Shown piece by piece: positions 5,877 through 40,787 of a stretch of DNA of 64,000 bases. The notes under the pieces were generated by a model. That model had not been told where the DNA came from and searched no databases. It saw nothing but the letters and a program-made list of their open reading frames with translations. Positions within the stretch are counted from its first letter, which is position 1. Each line of letters starts with the position of its first letter. Origin of the DNA: Burkholderiales bacterium (GTDB lineage: Bacteria; Pseudomonadota; Gammaproteobacteria; Burkholderiales; Casimicrobiaceae); contig JAEUPL010000013.1 of assembly GCA_016790165.1 (NCBI GenBank), positions 81,543 to 145,542 on the forward strand, written 5' to 3'. The translations under genes and the position numbers were made by a program.

Positions 5877-5998
5877 TTTGGCTTTGAGACCTGAGCGACA
5901 GCCTGCTGGGCCTGGTAGCACGATTACGAGGGAAGTCGACTTTCACGATTTTCGCCTTGAGACGGTTGTTCTACGGCCGTAGAAGACAAGAAGCCGTT
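5877..5998. repeat. 122-bp quasi-palindromic element, copy 1
   Basis: The sequence has exactly 58 bases on each side of a central GTCGAC (5935-5940). The left end is TTTGGCTTTGAG and the right end CAAGAAGCCGTT, related to the AACAGCTTTTTG / CAAAAAGCTGTT ends of the other copies (14252, 36528, 40666). This copy is the most diverged. It lies just upstream of the soxR promoter region. Seen by eye; no alignment was run. Confidence 0.65.
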
Positions 5999-6020
5999 AG
6001 CGTGTGATCGCGTGAGTCAT

Positions 6021-6069
6021 TAGGGTATACCCTAGTATTGCATATATGCGCGTACGCGCATAATTGCAT
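6021..6069 (+). promoter_or_regulatory. Tandem palindromic operators upstream of the sox regulator
   Basis: Two perfect palindromes precede the regulator: TAGGGTATACCCTA (6021-6034) and TATGCGCGTACGCGCATA (6045-6062). The second is flanked by direct repeats ATTGCAT at 6037-6043 and 6063-6069. ArsR-family repressors bind such dyads, so autorepression and control of the sox operon is the natural inference. No promoter elements could be fixed with confidence. Confidence 0.65.
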
Positions 6070-6107
6070 CTACTGAGATCAAATGACGCAGAGAGGAGGT
6101 GGCGCAA

Positions 6108-6530
6108 GTGGAGGAGCTCGAACCCGTCTTCGACAAAGTCGCCCGATATTTCTCACTGCTGTCGGATTCGTCACGGCTCAAAGTCATTCACACCATCTGC
6201 AATCTCGAGAAGAGTGTGAATGATGTGGTGACGACGACCGGCCTCTCGCAAAGCACCGTGTCGCGGCACCTGGCCAATCTGCACGTGGCCGGTGTGGCAT
6301 CCCGCCGCAAGGTGGGTGCGCAAGCGCTCTACACCATCACCGACCGCATGCTGACCGAGATTTGCCGCAACGCCTGCGTGAGCCTCGTTGCCCGCGAAAT
6401 GGAGCAGACCGACGCGCAGTCTCTGCAGCGCGGTGCCTCGCAATTTATGCGCGACAGGGAGGCCGCTGTTCGCGCGGAATCCCGCGCGCCCACTTATGCC
6501 GCCCTGGCAGCACAGCAAGAAGGACGATAA
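6108..6530 (+). CDS. soxR: ArsR-family repressor of the sox cluster
   Basis: A small winged-helix regulator of about 140 aa. Residues from LLSDSSRLKVIHTICN through GLSQSTVSRHLANLHVAG form the ArsR helix-turn-helix, followed by the beta wing (RRKVGAQALYTI). Cysteines in the first domain and at the end of the fold (CRNAC) could be the thiol switch known in SoxR/SqrR-type sulfur-responsive repressors; this is inference. GTG 6108 was chosen because GGAGGT lies 7 bases upstream; GTG 6099 would overlap that site. It is first in the sox operon, 7 bp before soxC, and its own palindromic operators lie just upstream. Confidence 0.85.
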   Translation: MEELEPVFDKVARYFSLLSDSSRLKVIHTICNLEKSVNDVVTTTGLSQSTVSRHLANLHVAGVASRRKVGAQALYTITDRMLTEICRNACVSLVAREMEQTDAQSLQRGASQFMRDREAAVRAESRAPTYAALAAQQEGR

Positions 6531-6537
6531 GGCCGCC

Positions 6538-7875
6538 ATGACTTTCAACCACCGACCCGGTCGCCTGCAAAAGGCGCCCGAATTCTTCCTGACGCGCGAG
6601 GCCATGACGCTTTCGCGCGATGATCGACGCAGCTTTCTGCGCAAGGCCTTTCTCGCAGCGGGCGGCGCCGCCGGTACGCTGGCGCTGTCCAAAGGCGCAG
6701 TTGCCGCCGACGGCGATCCCGCGATCCTGAATCTGCCGGCGCATACGAAAGGCCTTGGCCAACCGGTTGCAGCGCGTCCGTACGGTCTGCCCTCGAAGCA
6801 TGAGGAAAACCTGCAACGTCGCGAAAGTCCCGGCCTCACCCGGGTGGGCGCGGCGAGCGTGAGCTTTGCGCCGCTGCAAGGCTTCTTCGGCATCATCACG
6901 CCGAGCGGTCTGCACTTTGAGCGCCATCATCAGGGTTGGTGGGATATCGATCCGGCGCAGCATCGCTTCATGATTAACGGGTTGGTCAAGAACCCGAAGG
7001 TCTACACGATGGACGACCTCATGCGCATGCCCTCCATCTCGCGCATGCACTTCATCGAGTGCGGCGCCAACACCGGCATGGAGTGGGGCAATGTCGCTGT
7101 GCCGACGGTGCAGTACACGCATGGCATGCTCTCCTGCTGCGAGTTCACTGGTGTGCCGCTCAAGTGGTTGCTGGACGACTGCGGCGCCGATTTCAAGAAG
7201 GGTAAGTTCGTGCTCGCTGAGGGGGCGGATGGCAGCAGCATGACGCGCACCATCAACATGGCCAACGTACTCGACGATGTGATGGTGGCCTACGCGATGA
7301 ACGGCGAAATGCTGCGCCCGGAGAACGGCTACCCGCTGCGCCTTGTGGTTCCTGGTGTGCAGGGGGTGTCGTGGGTCAAGTACCTGCGCCGCATCGAAGT
7401 CGGCGACATGCCGTATGCGGCGAAGGACGAGACGATTCACTATGTTGACCTGATGCCCGACGGGCAGCATCGCCAGTACACCAGCATTCAGGAAGTGAAG
7501 AGCGTCATCACGTCGCCCTCGGGCGGTCAGGTGCTCATTGACAAAGGTTTCTTCAACATCACCGGCATTGCCTGGAGCGGTCGCGGCAAGATCCAGAAGG
7601 TCGATGTCTCGGTCGACGGCGGCAAGAACTGGAAGTCGGCGCGTCTGGAGACGCCGATCCTGGACAAGTGCCTGACTCGCTTCAATATTGACTGGACCTG
7701 GAACGGCGGCGACGCCATCCTGATGTCGCGGGCAACCGACTCGACCGGCCACGTTCAGCCAACCATGACGGCGTTGCGCAAGGTGCGCGGCACCAAGTCG
7801 ATTTATCACAACAACTCGATTCAAAGCTGGCTCGTCTCGGCGAATGGGGAGGTCAGCAATGTACAAATCGGTTAA
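6538..7875 (+). CDS. soxC: SoxC, molybdenum subunit of sulfane dehydrogenase
   Basis: SoxC is the molybdopterin subunit of the periplasmic Sox(CD)2 complex, which removes six electrons from the sulfane sulfur bound to SoxY. The 445-aa protein opens with a twin-arginine signal (DRRSFLRKAF, about residues 24-33, then AAGGAAGTLAL). It holds the sulfite-oxidase fold: HFIECGANTGMEW around the pterin-ligating cysteine and the dimerisation domain from about 310 on (VDGGKNWKSARLE). ATG 6538 follows the regulator stop by 7 bp; ATG 6604 is a later candidate just before the RR motif. The gene overlaps soxD by 17 bp, which suggests coupled translation. Confidence 0.95.
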   Translation: MTFNHRPGRLQKAPEFFLTREAMTLSRDDRRSFLRKAFLAAGGAAGTLALSKGAVAADGDPAILNLPAHTKGLGQPVAARPYGLPSKHEENLQRRESPGLTRVGAASVSFAPLQGFFGIITPSGLHFERHHQGWWDIDPAQHRFMINGLVKNPKVYTMDDLMRMPSISRMHFIECGANTGMEWGNVAVPTVQYTHGMLSCCEFTGVPLKWLLDDCGADFKKGKFVLAEGADGSSMTRTINMANVLDDVMVAYAMNGEMLRPENGYPLRLVVPGVQGVSWVKYLRRIEVGDMPYAAKDETIHYVDLMPDGQHRQYTSIQEVKSVITSPSGGQVLIDKGFFNITGIAWSGRGKIQKVDVSVDGGKNWKSARLETPILDKCLTRFNIDWTWNGGDAILMSRATDSTGHVQPTMTALRKVRGTKSIYHNNSIQSWLVSANGEVSNVQIG

Positions 7876-38917: not shown

Positions 38918-40026
38918 AATTTGAACTTCTCGCGACGGACGGCCACGCCCGACGAGGTCGCGTCCATCTGAATCACGGCGTGGTCGAGACGCCCATCTTC
39001 ATGCCGGTAGGCACCTATGGCACGGTGAAGGCGATGACGCCACAGATGCTCACCGATATCGGCTCGCAGATCATCCTGGGCAACACGTTTCACCTGTGGT
39101 TGCGGCCGGGCACGACGATCATCGACCAGTTCAAGGGACTGCACGATTTCATGGGCTGGCGCGGGCCGATCCTCACCGATTCCGGCGGCTTTCAGGTCTG
39201 GTCGCTCGGTGAACTGCGCAAGATCACCGAGGCGGGCGTGCACTTCGCGTCACCGATCAACGGAGACCGGCTGTTTCTTTCGCCGGAAGTGTCGATGCAG
39301 ATTCAGCGCGTGCTGAATTCCGACATCGTGATGCAGCTCGATGAGTGCACACCTGCCGACGCCACCTACGAGCAGGCGCAGGCCTCGATGCTGATGAGCC
39401 GGCGCTGGGCGCAGCGCTCGAAGGATGAGTTCAACAAACTTGAAAACCCCAACGCCCTGTTCGGTATCGTGCAGGGCACGCTGTTCGAGCAGTTGCGCGC
39501 CGACTCGCTGGCCGGGCTGAACGAGATCGGGTTCGATGGCATCGCCGTCGGCGGCCTCTCGGTCGGCGAATCGAAGGAGGACATGCACCGCATCCTCGAT
39601 TTCATCGGCCCTAAACTGCCCGCCGACAAGCCGCATTACCTGATGGGTGTCGGCACGCCGGAGGATCTGGTCTATGCCGTCGAACGCGGCATCGACATGT
39701 TCGATTGCGTGATGCCGACACGCAACGCGCGCAACGGCTGGCTATTCACGCGCTTCGGCGACATCAAGCTCAAGAACGCCAAATTCCGCGACGACCGGCG
39801 GCCTCTTGATGAGACATGCGACTGCTACACCTGCCGTCACTTCAGCCGCGCGTACCTGCATCACCTGAACAAGACCGGCGAAATTCTCGGCGCCATGTTG
39901 AATACCGTTCACAACCTGCACTACTACCTGCAGCTCGCCAGCGAAATGCGGGCAGCGATCGAGCAGCAGCGGTACGTAGCATGGCGCGAGCAATTCCGTA
40001 GCGACCGGGCGCGTGGTACGGATTGA
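38914..40026 (+). CDS. tgt: Tgt, tRNA-guanine transglycosylase
   Basis: Tgt swaps guanine-34 for preQ1 in the queuosine pathway. The 370-aa protein has [19 protein letters not shown] (nucleophile region), [21 protein letters not shown], and the zinc site [16 protein letters not shown]. It follows queA with an ATGA overlap. Confidence 0.96.
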
Positions 40027-40046
40027 CGAACTGAGTGTCGTTTCAG

Positions 40047-40067
40047 GGCCACAGTGAGCACGTGGCC
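40047..40067 (+). terminator. Weak terminator-like hairpin after tgt
   Basis: GGCCAC pairs with GTGGCC (6 bp, 9-nt loop), followed by only ACTTTCGT, 20 bp after the stop. Confidence 0.4.
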
Positions 40068-40293
40068 ACTTTCGTGCAGGATTTGCGGAGAATTTCACAC
40101 GTACCAGGAAAATTCTGATCAGACTACGCTTGCGCGGTATCGTTCATGTGATCGACGTGCTCCTCCGTCGTCGCCCCACCGGAAACACGATCAACTCACC
40201 TCCGCGCTCGCCGTGAAAAGTCAAAACGCGCCGCATCACTAAAGTCACAACGACACAGCGAGACGTCACGCGAGTTCGGGCGCGTTCGCACTT

Positions 40294-40631
40294 GTGCTCA
40301 GGGTGATGGGGGGCAGTGCCGTCGCGGGCGGTGTCGACCCCGACACGTTGCCACTCGTCGCCCACTACACGGATCGTCTGATTGTCAAACTGACGCCGTC
40401 CTCGGCGAAAGGCCCGTCGATCTCGGCAGCCGACGGGGCGCAGATGGCCACAACGCTGAGCGCTACGAGAGGGCGCGCGCTGTGCTTTTCGCACCAGGCC
40501 GGCATGGGGCCGCGATCCTCAAGACGGCTTCGCGCATGACGCTCGCGGAGGCGGCCGCCGTCGCGGCACAGACTTCCGCGCAGGCGGATGTCGACTACGC
40601 TGAGCCGGACTGCGGCACCAACTACCCGTAG
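40294..40631 (+). pseudogene. Remnant of a subtilisin-like (S8) protease propeptide
   Basis: Frame 1 reads DRLIVKLTPSSA...LSATRGRALCFSHQAGMG up to about 40509; after a one-base shift the text continues AAILKTASRMTLAEAAAVAAQ and DVDYAEPD. This is the usual inhibitor I9/propeptide pattern of secreted S8 proteases. Restoring one G in the run at 40506-40509 joins the two. The catalytic domain is absent; a TAG stops the frame at 40629. Confidence 0.65.
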
Positions 40632-40665
40632 CCCGCTGTGCGGCCGTGGGGGAACCCCGGATCGG

Positions 40666-40787
40666 TATAGCTTTTTAGCCTGATCCGCCGCCGTTTGGTC
40701 ATTTGGATGTAGTTTTTCTGTAGGTCGACATTCAGAAAAACGCATGCCAAACGACCGGCTGGCGGTCGGTAGCTGGACAAAGCTGTT
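40666..40787. repeat. 122-bp quasi-palindromic element, copy 3
   Basis: Centre GTCGAC (40724-40729) with exactly 58 bases on each side. Ends TATAGCTTTTTA and GACAAAGCTGTT. Inner arms pair well near the centre (GTTTTTCTG / CAGAAAAAC) and at CGTTTGG / CCAAACG. It lies between the protease remnant and yajC. Confidence 0.78.

Follow-up and report, generated by a model that had tools for sequence, protein, structure and literature searches.

Several classes of short, dispersed sequences are known from bacterial chromosomes, and the ~120-bp repeated element described here, which occurs four times in a window of 64,000 nt (positions 81543-145542 of contig C11, JAEUPL010000013.1) of a Burkholderiales bacterium (draft genome of 3.76 Mb in 41 contigs, GCA_016790165.1, hereafter G000), bears some likeness to each of them. 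REPINs, which are linked to REP-associated tyrosine transposases (RAYTs), are extragenic units of ~100 bp, composed of two inverted palindromic units and present in hundreds of copies (PMC3116915; PMC2817692), and one of these accounts describes them as randomly distributed in extragenic space (PMC3116915), unlike the regular spacing found here. In further contrast to them, the present element lacks exactly conserved 16-mer ends and hairpin covariation, is rarely found as a half copy (1 of 85) and is not consistently adjacent to a RAYT gene. The ERIC/IRU elements of enterobacteria, of 127 bp, are presented in two reports as similar in length and likewise intergenic (PMC2229807, PMC2759123). 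They belong to another host group. ERIC/IRU elements are quasi-palindromic, as is the element studied here, but ERIC copies share descent in their sequence, whereas in the present element the unconstrained positions are random between copies. Miniature inverted-repeat transposable elements are characterized, in one description, by terminal inverted repeats and a lack of coding capacity (PMC10969869), whereas here the copies do not share their interior, neither target duplications nor a parent transposase were found, and decayed copies are few. A different likeness is to the matS/MatP, SlmA, Noc and parS sites, dispersed palindromic protein sites that are kept by the host, protein binding being putative in the present case; in G000 and in the related genome G005 the element, too, is dispersed over the chromosome and kept intact. 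The former sites are short (~12-24 bp) and region-biased, whereas those described here are of 120 bp, lie ~13-14 kb apart, are found around the whole G005 chromosome and occur in dialects. Finally, DNA uptake sequences are evenly spaced, and differ from the present element in being 10-12 bp long and present in about a thousand or more copies. Their species dialects, as presented in one report (PMC3630211), provide a further likeness. No description of the layout reported here was found in Rfam or in the open-licence literature, in agreement with an earlier note, made from the sequence of the window, whose author knew of no named family that displays it.

The four copies are members of a genome-wide family of fixed length. 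The pattern ACAGCTTTTTGN{40,50}GTCGA gave 38 arm matches in G000, two of which are the arms of copy 3, and none in a control read backwards, which puts the pattern far above chance. A sequence-only model (R1), built from 30 G000 copies and applied to 1,211,601 bases of that genome (the window, the whole of contigs C18, C15 and C7, 200 kb of C9 and 40 kb of C12), returned 169 strand matches at E<1e-5, which correspond to 85 unique places; this density of one copy per 14.3 kb extrapolates to ~264 copies per genome. The earlier note had held that a lack of further copies would speak against its proposal, and the 85 places in 1.21 Mb settle that point in favor of a real family. Weak or decayed copies amounted to one place of 17 bits in the 790 kb of G000 searched to E 0.1, with none in the other 422 kb, and a model built for G005 from the copies of that genome yielded 84 strand matches at 42 places, with nothing weaker down to E 0.01; the scarcity of intermediate scores in both genomes suggests that decayed copies are few. 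In G000, 79 of the 85 copies could be used in a gapless 60+60 register, and the six with indels or a missing arm were dropped from the covariation, pair-identity and target-duplication tests (among listed elements, L012 is the other strand of L011). Five of these six keep both arms if one indel is allowed, the exception being L189 (5641-5749), the only half copy among the 85, in which different sequence, next to the end of a gene, stands in place of the left arm. In a scan of named genomes, the half pattern was present in 19 stretches, all from metagenome-assembled genomes labelled Burkholderiales, Betaproteobacteria or Pseudomonadota. A link to viruses was considered and abandoned, three pattern matches in viral contigs being located in one long open reading frame (ORF) common to three near-identical contigs, where R1 had no match. 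Two other short repeats are over-represented in the G000 DNA examined, the 12-mers GACGAATGACGA (23) and GGAAACGCTGAA (18).

Each element consists of two 60-bp arms that meet at GTCGAC. From the outside in, an arm harbors A[CT][AG]GCTTTT, a variable stretch, the sub-site AnCGAC-n8-GGtCGtT, which is itself palindromic with its center near base 27, an A/T tract at bases 46-50, and AAGTC at the center of the element; bases 52-54 are without information (0.00-0.05 bits), and an A or T stands just outside the arm in 96% of arm ends. The central consensus of the G000 type is AAGTCGACTT, half of which lies in each arm. Among 174 arm matches above 14 bits in the 1.21 Mb of G000, 165 lie within listed elements, two are the arms of an element off the list, and seven are echoes 67 bp from element centers, the reversed control giving 0; apart from the half copy L189, no lone arm above 14 bits was detected outside elements in this DNA.

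The arms of a copy had been proposed in the earlier note to still pair with each other, as a sign of selection for a fold, and this proposal was not upheld once the whole set was considered. Arms of the same copy match at 31.48 of 60 positions, versus 31.30 (sd 0.36) for arms re-dealt between the 79 copies (z 0.49), so that pairing beyond their shared consensus is not confirmed; the same permutation gave z 0.73 in G005 and z 1.94 in G007. The earlier note had named arm pairing no stronger than in shuffled sequences as a result that would refute it, and over the whole set this check speaks against the fold. Covariation above z 4 was seen in 1 of 5963 column pairs, and the eight pairs of the hairpin within the arm deviated from permutation by no more than ~1.6 sd, some upward and some downward (for example, 68 versus 60.6, and 64 versus 72.0). 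Single copies can nevertheless fold well as single-stranded RNA in comparison to dinucleotide shuffles, with z values on the two strands of -2.5/-3.8 for copy 3, -5.8/-6.7 for copy 4 and, more weakly, -2.0/-1.4 for copy 2, copy 1 being no better than shuffles; such folds are explained by the fact that the symmetry of the consensus alone yields them. The arms of copy 4, which pair at 37/60, stay short of the 38 that marks the 95th percentile when arms of separate copies are combined, and the RNA reading, for which this copy looked strong alone, was rejected on the basis of a whole set without covariation. In Rfam searches over the window, no family reached its gathering score at the elements. 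A match to mir-33 that stayed below threshold (43.5 versus 50 bits) fell on one element and was taken as chance. It would thus seem, from sequence comparison, that a fold is not selected across the set, and that a double-stranded, dyad-symmetric putative binding site fits the data; independent arms are expected of protein half-sites, and not of a hairpin.

The location of the elements relative to genes was studied with our own gene calls, which cover 87% of the 1.21 Mb of G000; 84 of the 85 elements have genes on both sides, the one with a gene on one side only being left out of the placement counts and the spacing list. Seventy-seven are fully intergenic, seven overlap a gene end or start, none lies inside a gene, and some intergenic gaps are filled nearly whole by one element. 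Gaps that carry elements are tandem (47), convergent (21) or divergent (16), the corresponding numbers for all gaps of at least 130 bp being 234, 51 and 106; in G005, all 42 elements are intergenic. In addition, the distance between elements is regular. The coefficient of variation (CV) of the spacing over four G000 contigs is 0.64, versus 0.92 (sd 0.10) for random intergenic gaps, with 0 of 2000 draws as low, and spacings below 3 kb make up 2.7% of the total, versus 16.6% expected. The 42 sites of G005 have a mean spacing of 12.55 kb, a CV of 0.59 and a smallest distance of 4.3 kb, while random intergenic picks give a CV of 0.94 (P 0.0007) and an expected 21.3% of spacings below 3 kb, where none was observed. 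In G007, for which sets of 88, 83 (first 394 kb), 73, 69 and 60 sites were obtained depending on the cut-off, the 83 sites of the first 394 kb have a mean spacing of 4.7 kb and a CV of 0.48 (0.85 for random intergenic gaps; 0 of 3000 draws as low), and a stricter set of 65 sites (first 394-400 kb) has a mean of 6.1 kb and a CV of 0.56, versus 0.98 for uniform placement. Phage-type integrase genes are present both in the largest gap between elements in G000 (44 kb, on C18), together with genes for a metal P-type ATPase, an RND pump and an M78 peptidase, and in a 55-kb gap in G007, which gives both the appearance of acquired islands. The C18 region at 10-52 kb (L141-L143) is an element-free island of the metal-resistance type. 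A model trained on 520 kb of G005 (R3) located 79 of its 100 best places outside of the training stretch, spread over the chromosome. An origin/terminus bias was tested in G005 and rejected, the best 100 among the matches listed falling into bins of 22, 22, 26, 19 and 11 (chi-square P 0.18, Kolmogorov-Smirnov P 0.06).

R1 was positive in 11 of 17 genomes of the genus, and the negative ones first seemed to be devoid of elements, until a palindrome scan and expectation-maximization (EM) revealed another dialect. A model from G007 (R2) was positive in 14 of 64 genomes of the family, all within the genus, adding the R1-negative G002, G007, G010, G011 and G014, such that 16 of the 17 match R1 or R2, G009 weakly (8 and 3 strand matches). 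Reversed controls were run for the sets derived by EM, with the training DNA also serving for this comparison, and the EM set of 24 for G002, which has a weak tail, was not used. None of 47 genomes from six other genera matched R2, a search that differing dialects could escape, and the R1 pattern gave one match, which looks like chance, among 43 genomes of other genera (in G022). At least three dialects exist, all with the same length, layout and dyad and with a changed arm palindrome: AACGACCGCCnGGCGGTCGTT, with center AAGTCGACTT, in G000; AAnCCCnATTnnAAnTGGGCT, with center AAAGTCGACTTT, in G005; and CGCCCAATTTAATTGGGCG, with a center near TTATCGATAA, in G007. Positions are also shared between genomes. 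An element is present in the same gap in G008 for copies 1, 3 and 4 of the window, the counterpart of copy 1 being elsewhere within the gap, and in G005 for copies 1, 2 and 4; the soxB gap of G008 is empty and 116 nt shorter (238 nt in G000, 122 in G008). Both yajC and soxB are flanked by elements in G000, G005, G007 and G008, the G008 element being on the other side of soxB. Furthermore, in the DNA examined, genes adjacent to an element have element-adjacent orthologs, on either side, above expectation in 12 of 12 directed comparisons (8/10 from G005 to G007, with 3.3 expected; 6/13 from G000 to G005, with 2.4; and, as the least, 5/18 from G007 to G000, with 3.0). Orthologous copies that share sequence were sought and none stood above background, identity in shared gaps showing no excess over unrelated copies (z at most 2.4, a value reached in the orientation that runs against synteny).

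The combination of intact, unrelated copies with independent arms, fixed geometry, a presence in all kinds of gaps, a regular distance and a sub-site that changes across a lineage while the remainder is kept suggests host-kept sites that co-evolve with a putative protein, and the regular distance and genome-wide spread make chromosome organization the likeliest task. The reading that we favor, to which we give slightly less than an even chance, is that these are sites of a putative chromosome-organizing protein complex whose specificity drifts between species. Each element would be one large, double-stranded, dyad-symmetric protein site with two 60-bp half-sites facing each other, a half-site consisting, from the outside in, of W-A[CT][AG]GCTTTT, the palindromic sub-site near base 27, the A/T tract at 46-50 and half of AAGTCGACTT. 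A dedicated putative protein or complex may bind in a fixed geometry, with contacts to the center, to both sub-sites and to the outer blocks, and the ~260 sites, one every ~13-14 kb, could serve as anchors or loading points for chromosome organization. The host would keep nearly every copy intact, and as the specificity of the protein drifts in a lineage the copies would follow, generating the dialects. A broader formulation, in which hundreds of host-kept, regularly placed 120-bp dyad sites act as a genus-wide chromosomal 'ruler', read by a putative multi-contact architectural complex of evolving specificity and fixed geometry, is a little more tentative still.

A number of observations weigh against this interpretation. 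Regular spacing could also arise from transposon target immunity or from uptake drive. Convergent gaps are over-represented (21/84; odds ratio 3.1, P 0.0007, versus gaps of at least 130 bp), which would not be expected if the role were structural alone, the odds ratio being inflated because the element itself lengthens the gap; together with the half copy, this excess shifts slightly more weight to regulators or terminators and slightly less to chromosome organization. The G007 set is less clean, since predicted genes contain 11 of its 73 elements and overlap 3 in part, the other 59 being intergenic, and its spacing loses regularity when all 500 kb are considered (CV 1.14 for 88 sites, 1.02 for 60), a result of the 55-kb gap and the sparse stretches that follow it. 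The best 100 G005 sites are unevenly distributed between chromosome halves (62 versus 38). Neither R1 nor R2 shows a copy in the deep genus member G016, and few are seen in G009, which indicates that the sites are dispensable in the genus. The shared-neighbor counts are small, carry no significance test and derive partly from the window region, which was chosen for its elements, and since shared gaps show no excess identity, vertical descent is argued from position.

Among the other explanations, the one that fares best, while still unlikely, is that the elements are miniature transposons, each a head-to-head pair of transposon ends. A transposase showing target immunity would formerly have moved them, and this immunity would account for the regular spacing. 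Target immunity does give over-dispersed spacing, and the terminal inverted repeats, the 116 nt by which G000 and G008 differ in length at the soxB site, the gaps filled almost wholly by one element and the half copy would all be in line with such an origin. However, flank identity is near permutation level for target-site duplications of 2-10 bp at 7 offsets in up to 79 copies, and near-identical pairs are lacking: mean pairwise identity is 64.96/120, versus 64.81 after column shuffling of the 79 copies, with a largest value of 83 in both, and the best pair (83/120) is within the range of 30 column-shuffled sets, which reach a mean of 80.4 and a maximum of 83. The variance of pair identity is 1.4x larger than in shuffled sets, indicating that copies differ in overall strength. 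Shared descent is thus not seen in the sequence of the copies, though it may be old and saturated. In addition, half copies (1/85) and decayed copies are few, and neutral decay would not keep ends, center and sub-sites while the rest is random. Mobility by terminal repeats, which the earlier note had put forward beside a fold, finds no backing in these results, nor in a consistently linked transposase.

That the elements are REPIN-like, in which case an inverted pair of REP units would fold into a hairpin and be moved by a RAYT, appears quite improbable. Nested palindromes in each arm and an extragenic location are shared with REPINs, 13 of the 17 genomes of the genus, which are drafts, hold a RAYT above the curated cut-off (179 bits in G000), and Y1_Tnp (PF01797) genes are present in 15 of the 17, the two without a match, G009 and G016, being those with few or no elements. 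This co-occurrence was weakened by a wider RAYT search, and with it the link of RAYTs to the elements: RAYTs over the cut-off were also found in 12 of the 47 R2-negative genomes from other genera, and are lacking in the element-rich G006 (77.1 versus 80 bits) and G015 (62 bits, with an internal stop). Moreover, R1, R2 or R3 place an element in the flanks (up to 1.5 kb) of 3 of 30 Y1_Tnp loci (30 of 44 matches examined), and at four RAYT loci of G000 and G005 no flanking repeat reaches at least 12 copies besides low-complexity or coding 12-mers, a test that is informative for these two genomes but not for G007 and G002, where no listed mixed-letter 12-mer attains 12 copies. Hairpin covariation is absent, and half copies are rare, unlike REP singlets. 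Two adjacent RAYT genes are located at G000:C12:1321-2479, with no REP-like repeat in the flanks examined.

We give similarly little credence to the view that a general topoisomerase (gyrase or topoisomerase IV) binds strongly to the elements, which would thereby set the supercoiling domains. The ~120-bp length is close to that wrapped by gyrase, and the spacing is on the order of supercoiled domains; dyad symmetry over ~120 bp, a symmetric core and A/T tracts would suit such an enzyme, as may the many sites between convergent genes, where positive supercoils would meet. Known gyrase sites, however, are weakly sequence-specific, and a conserved enzyme is not expected to yield genus-restricted dialects.

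A role as cis-regulatory or terminator elements (operators, RNA structures or bidirectional terminators) is about as doubtful. Three copies of the window precede genes, sub-sites are hairpin-like, T tracts are present and convergent gaps are over-represented, but elements lie between convergent, divergent and tandem genes alike (21, 16 and 47), covariation is absent, in the consensus no T tract comes immediately after a hairpin-like sub-site, and no Rfam family falls on elements at gathering score over the window. Least probable of all is a DNA uptake-type signal spread by preferential recombination, which the species dialects and even spacing would resemble, as in the Neisseria uptake sequence dialects, but whose known examples are ~10x shorter, while the present element is dyad-symmetric, intergenic, far lower in copy number and a site that cannot arise through a few point mutations.

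All four copies in the window are where the earlier note had placed them, with GTCGAC at their centers and GTCGAT in one, which is copy 2.

Table 1. Elements of the family in the window and their dyad centers (window coordinates)
Feature	Position	Strand	Remark
Element copy 1	5877..5998	.	53.8 bits; weakest ends of the four
Copy 1 dyad center GTCGAC	5935..5940	.	
Element copy 2	14252..14372	.	62.8 bits
Copy 2 dyad center GTCGAT	14310..14315	.	
Element copy 3	36528..36651	.	63.6 bits
Copy 3 dyad center GTCGAC	36587..36592	.	
Element copy 4	40666..40787	.	66.0 bits
Copy 4 dyad center GTCGAC	40724..40729	.	

Copy 1, whose weak ends are TTTGGCTTTGAG / CAAGAAGCCGTT, lies between a redoxin-type ORF (5021-5620, + strand) and an ArsR-type regulator (PF01022; 6099-6530, +). 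Copy 2, with a right arm that is one base short, follows a soxB-like gene (ending at 14218, +) and precedes a redoxin/thioredoxin-like gene whose likely first codons (ATGAACGAAAAAGCTGTA from 14358) are overlapped by the right end of the element. Copy 3, whose ends match each other (AACAGCTTTTTG / CAAAAAGCTGTT), occupies the divergent gap between a gene of the enoyl-CoA hydratase family (35673-36458, -) and an ORF (36828-37742, +), while copy 4 is located between tgt (38914-40026, +) and yajC (40901-41221, +). The three genes that the earlier note had seen shortly downstream of copies, soxR, a thioredoxin and yajC, are recovered as the ArsR-type, redoxin/thioredoxin-like and YajC neighbors; we take the location of the ArsR-type gene within the sox cluster to be compatible with the name soxR.

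Other features of the window include two nested inverted-repeat pairs at 11454-11515 and 12139-12199 (29 nt at 97% and 28 nt at 89%), with arms 623-688 bp apart; a segment at 12106-12344 that aligns, inverted and at 88%, to a place near soxB in G005; and, at 63550-64000, two 133-bp direct repeats of 74% identity that reach the window end. A selenocysteine tRNA (17971-18062, -) and a SECIS_3 element (28105-28163, -) were also identified, and on the basis of these two predicted features the lineage appears to make selenoproteins.

What is new is the element itself, in its layout, spacing and dialects; the favored function, if true, would join the known chromosome-organizing sites as a variant. 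The sites bear on the question of what sets domain size in bacterial chromosomes, and could themselves be employed as bait for finding the putative protein. In addition, the natural difference in spacing between species, of ~14 kb in G000, 12.5 kb in G005 and 4.7-6.1 kb in the regular part of G007, provides a ready experiment. Large, mostly intact, regular intergenic sites with lineage dialects point to a putative system for reading entire chromosomes on a ~5-14 kb scale.

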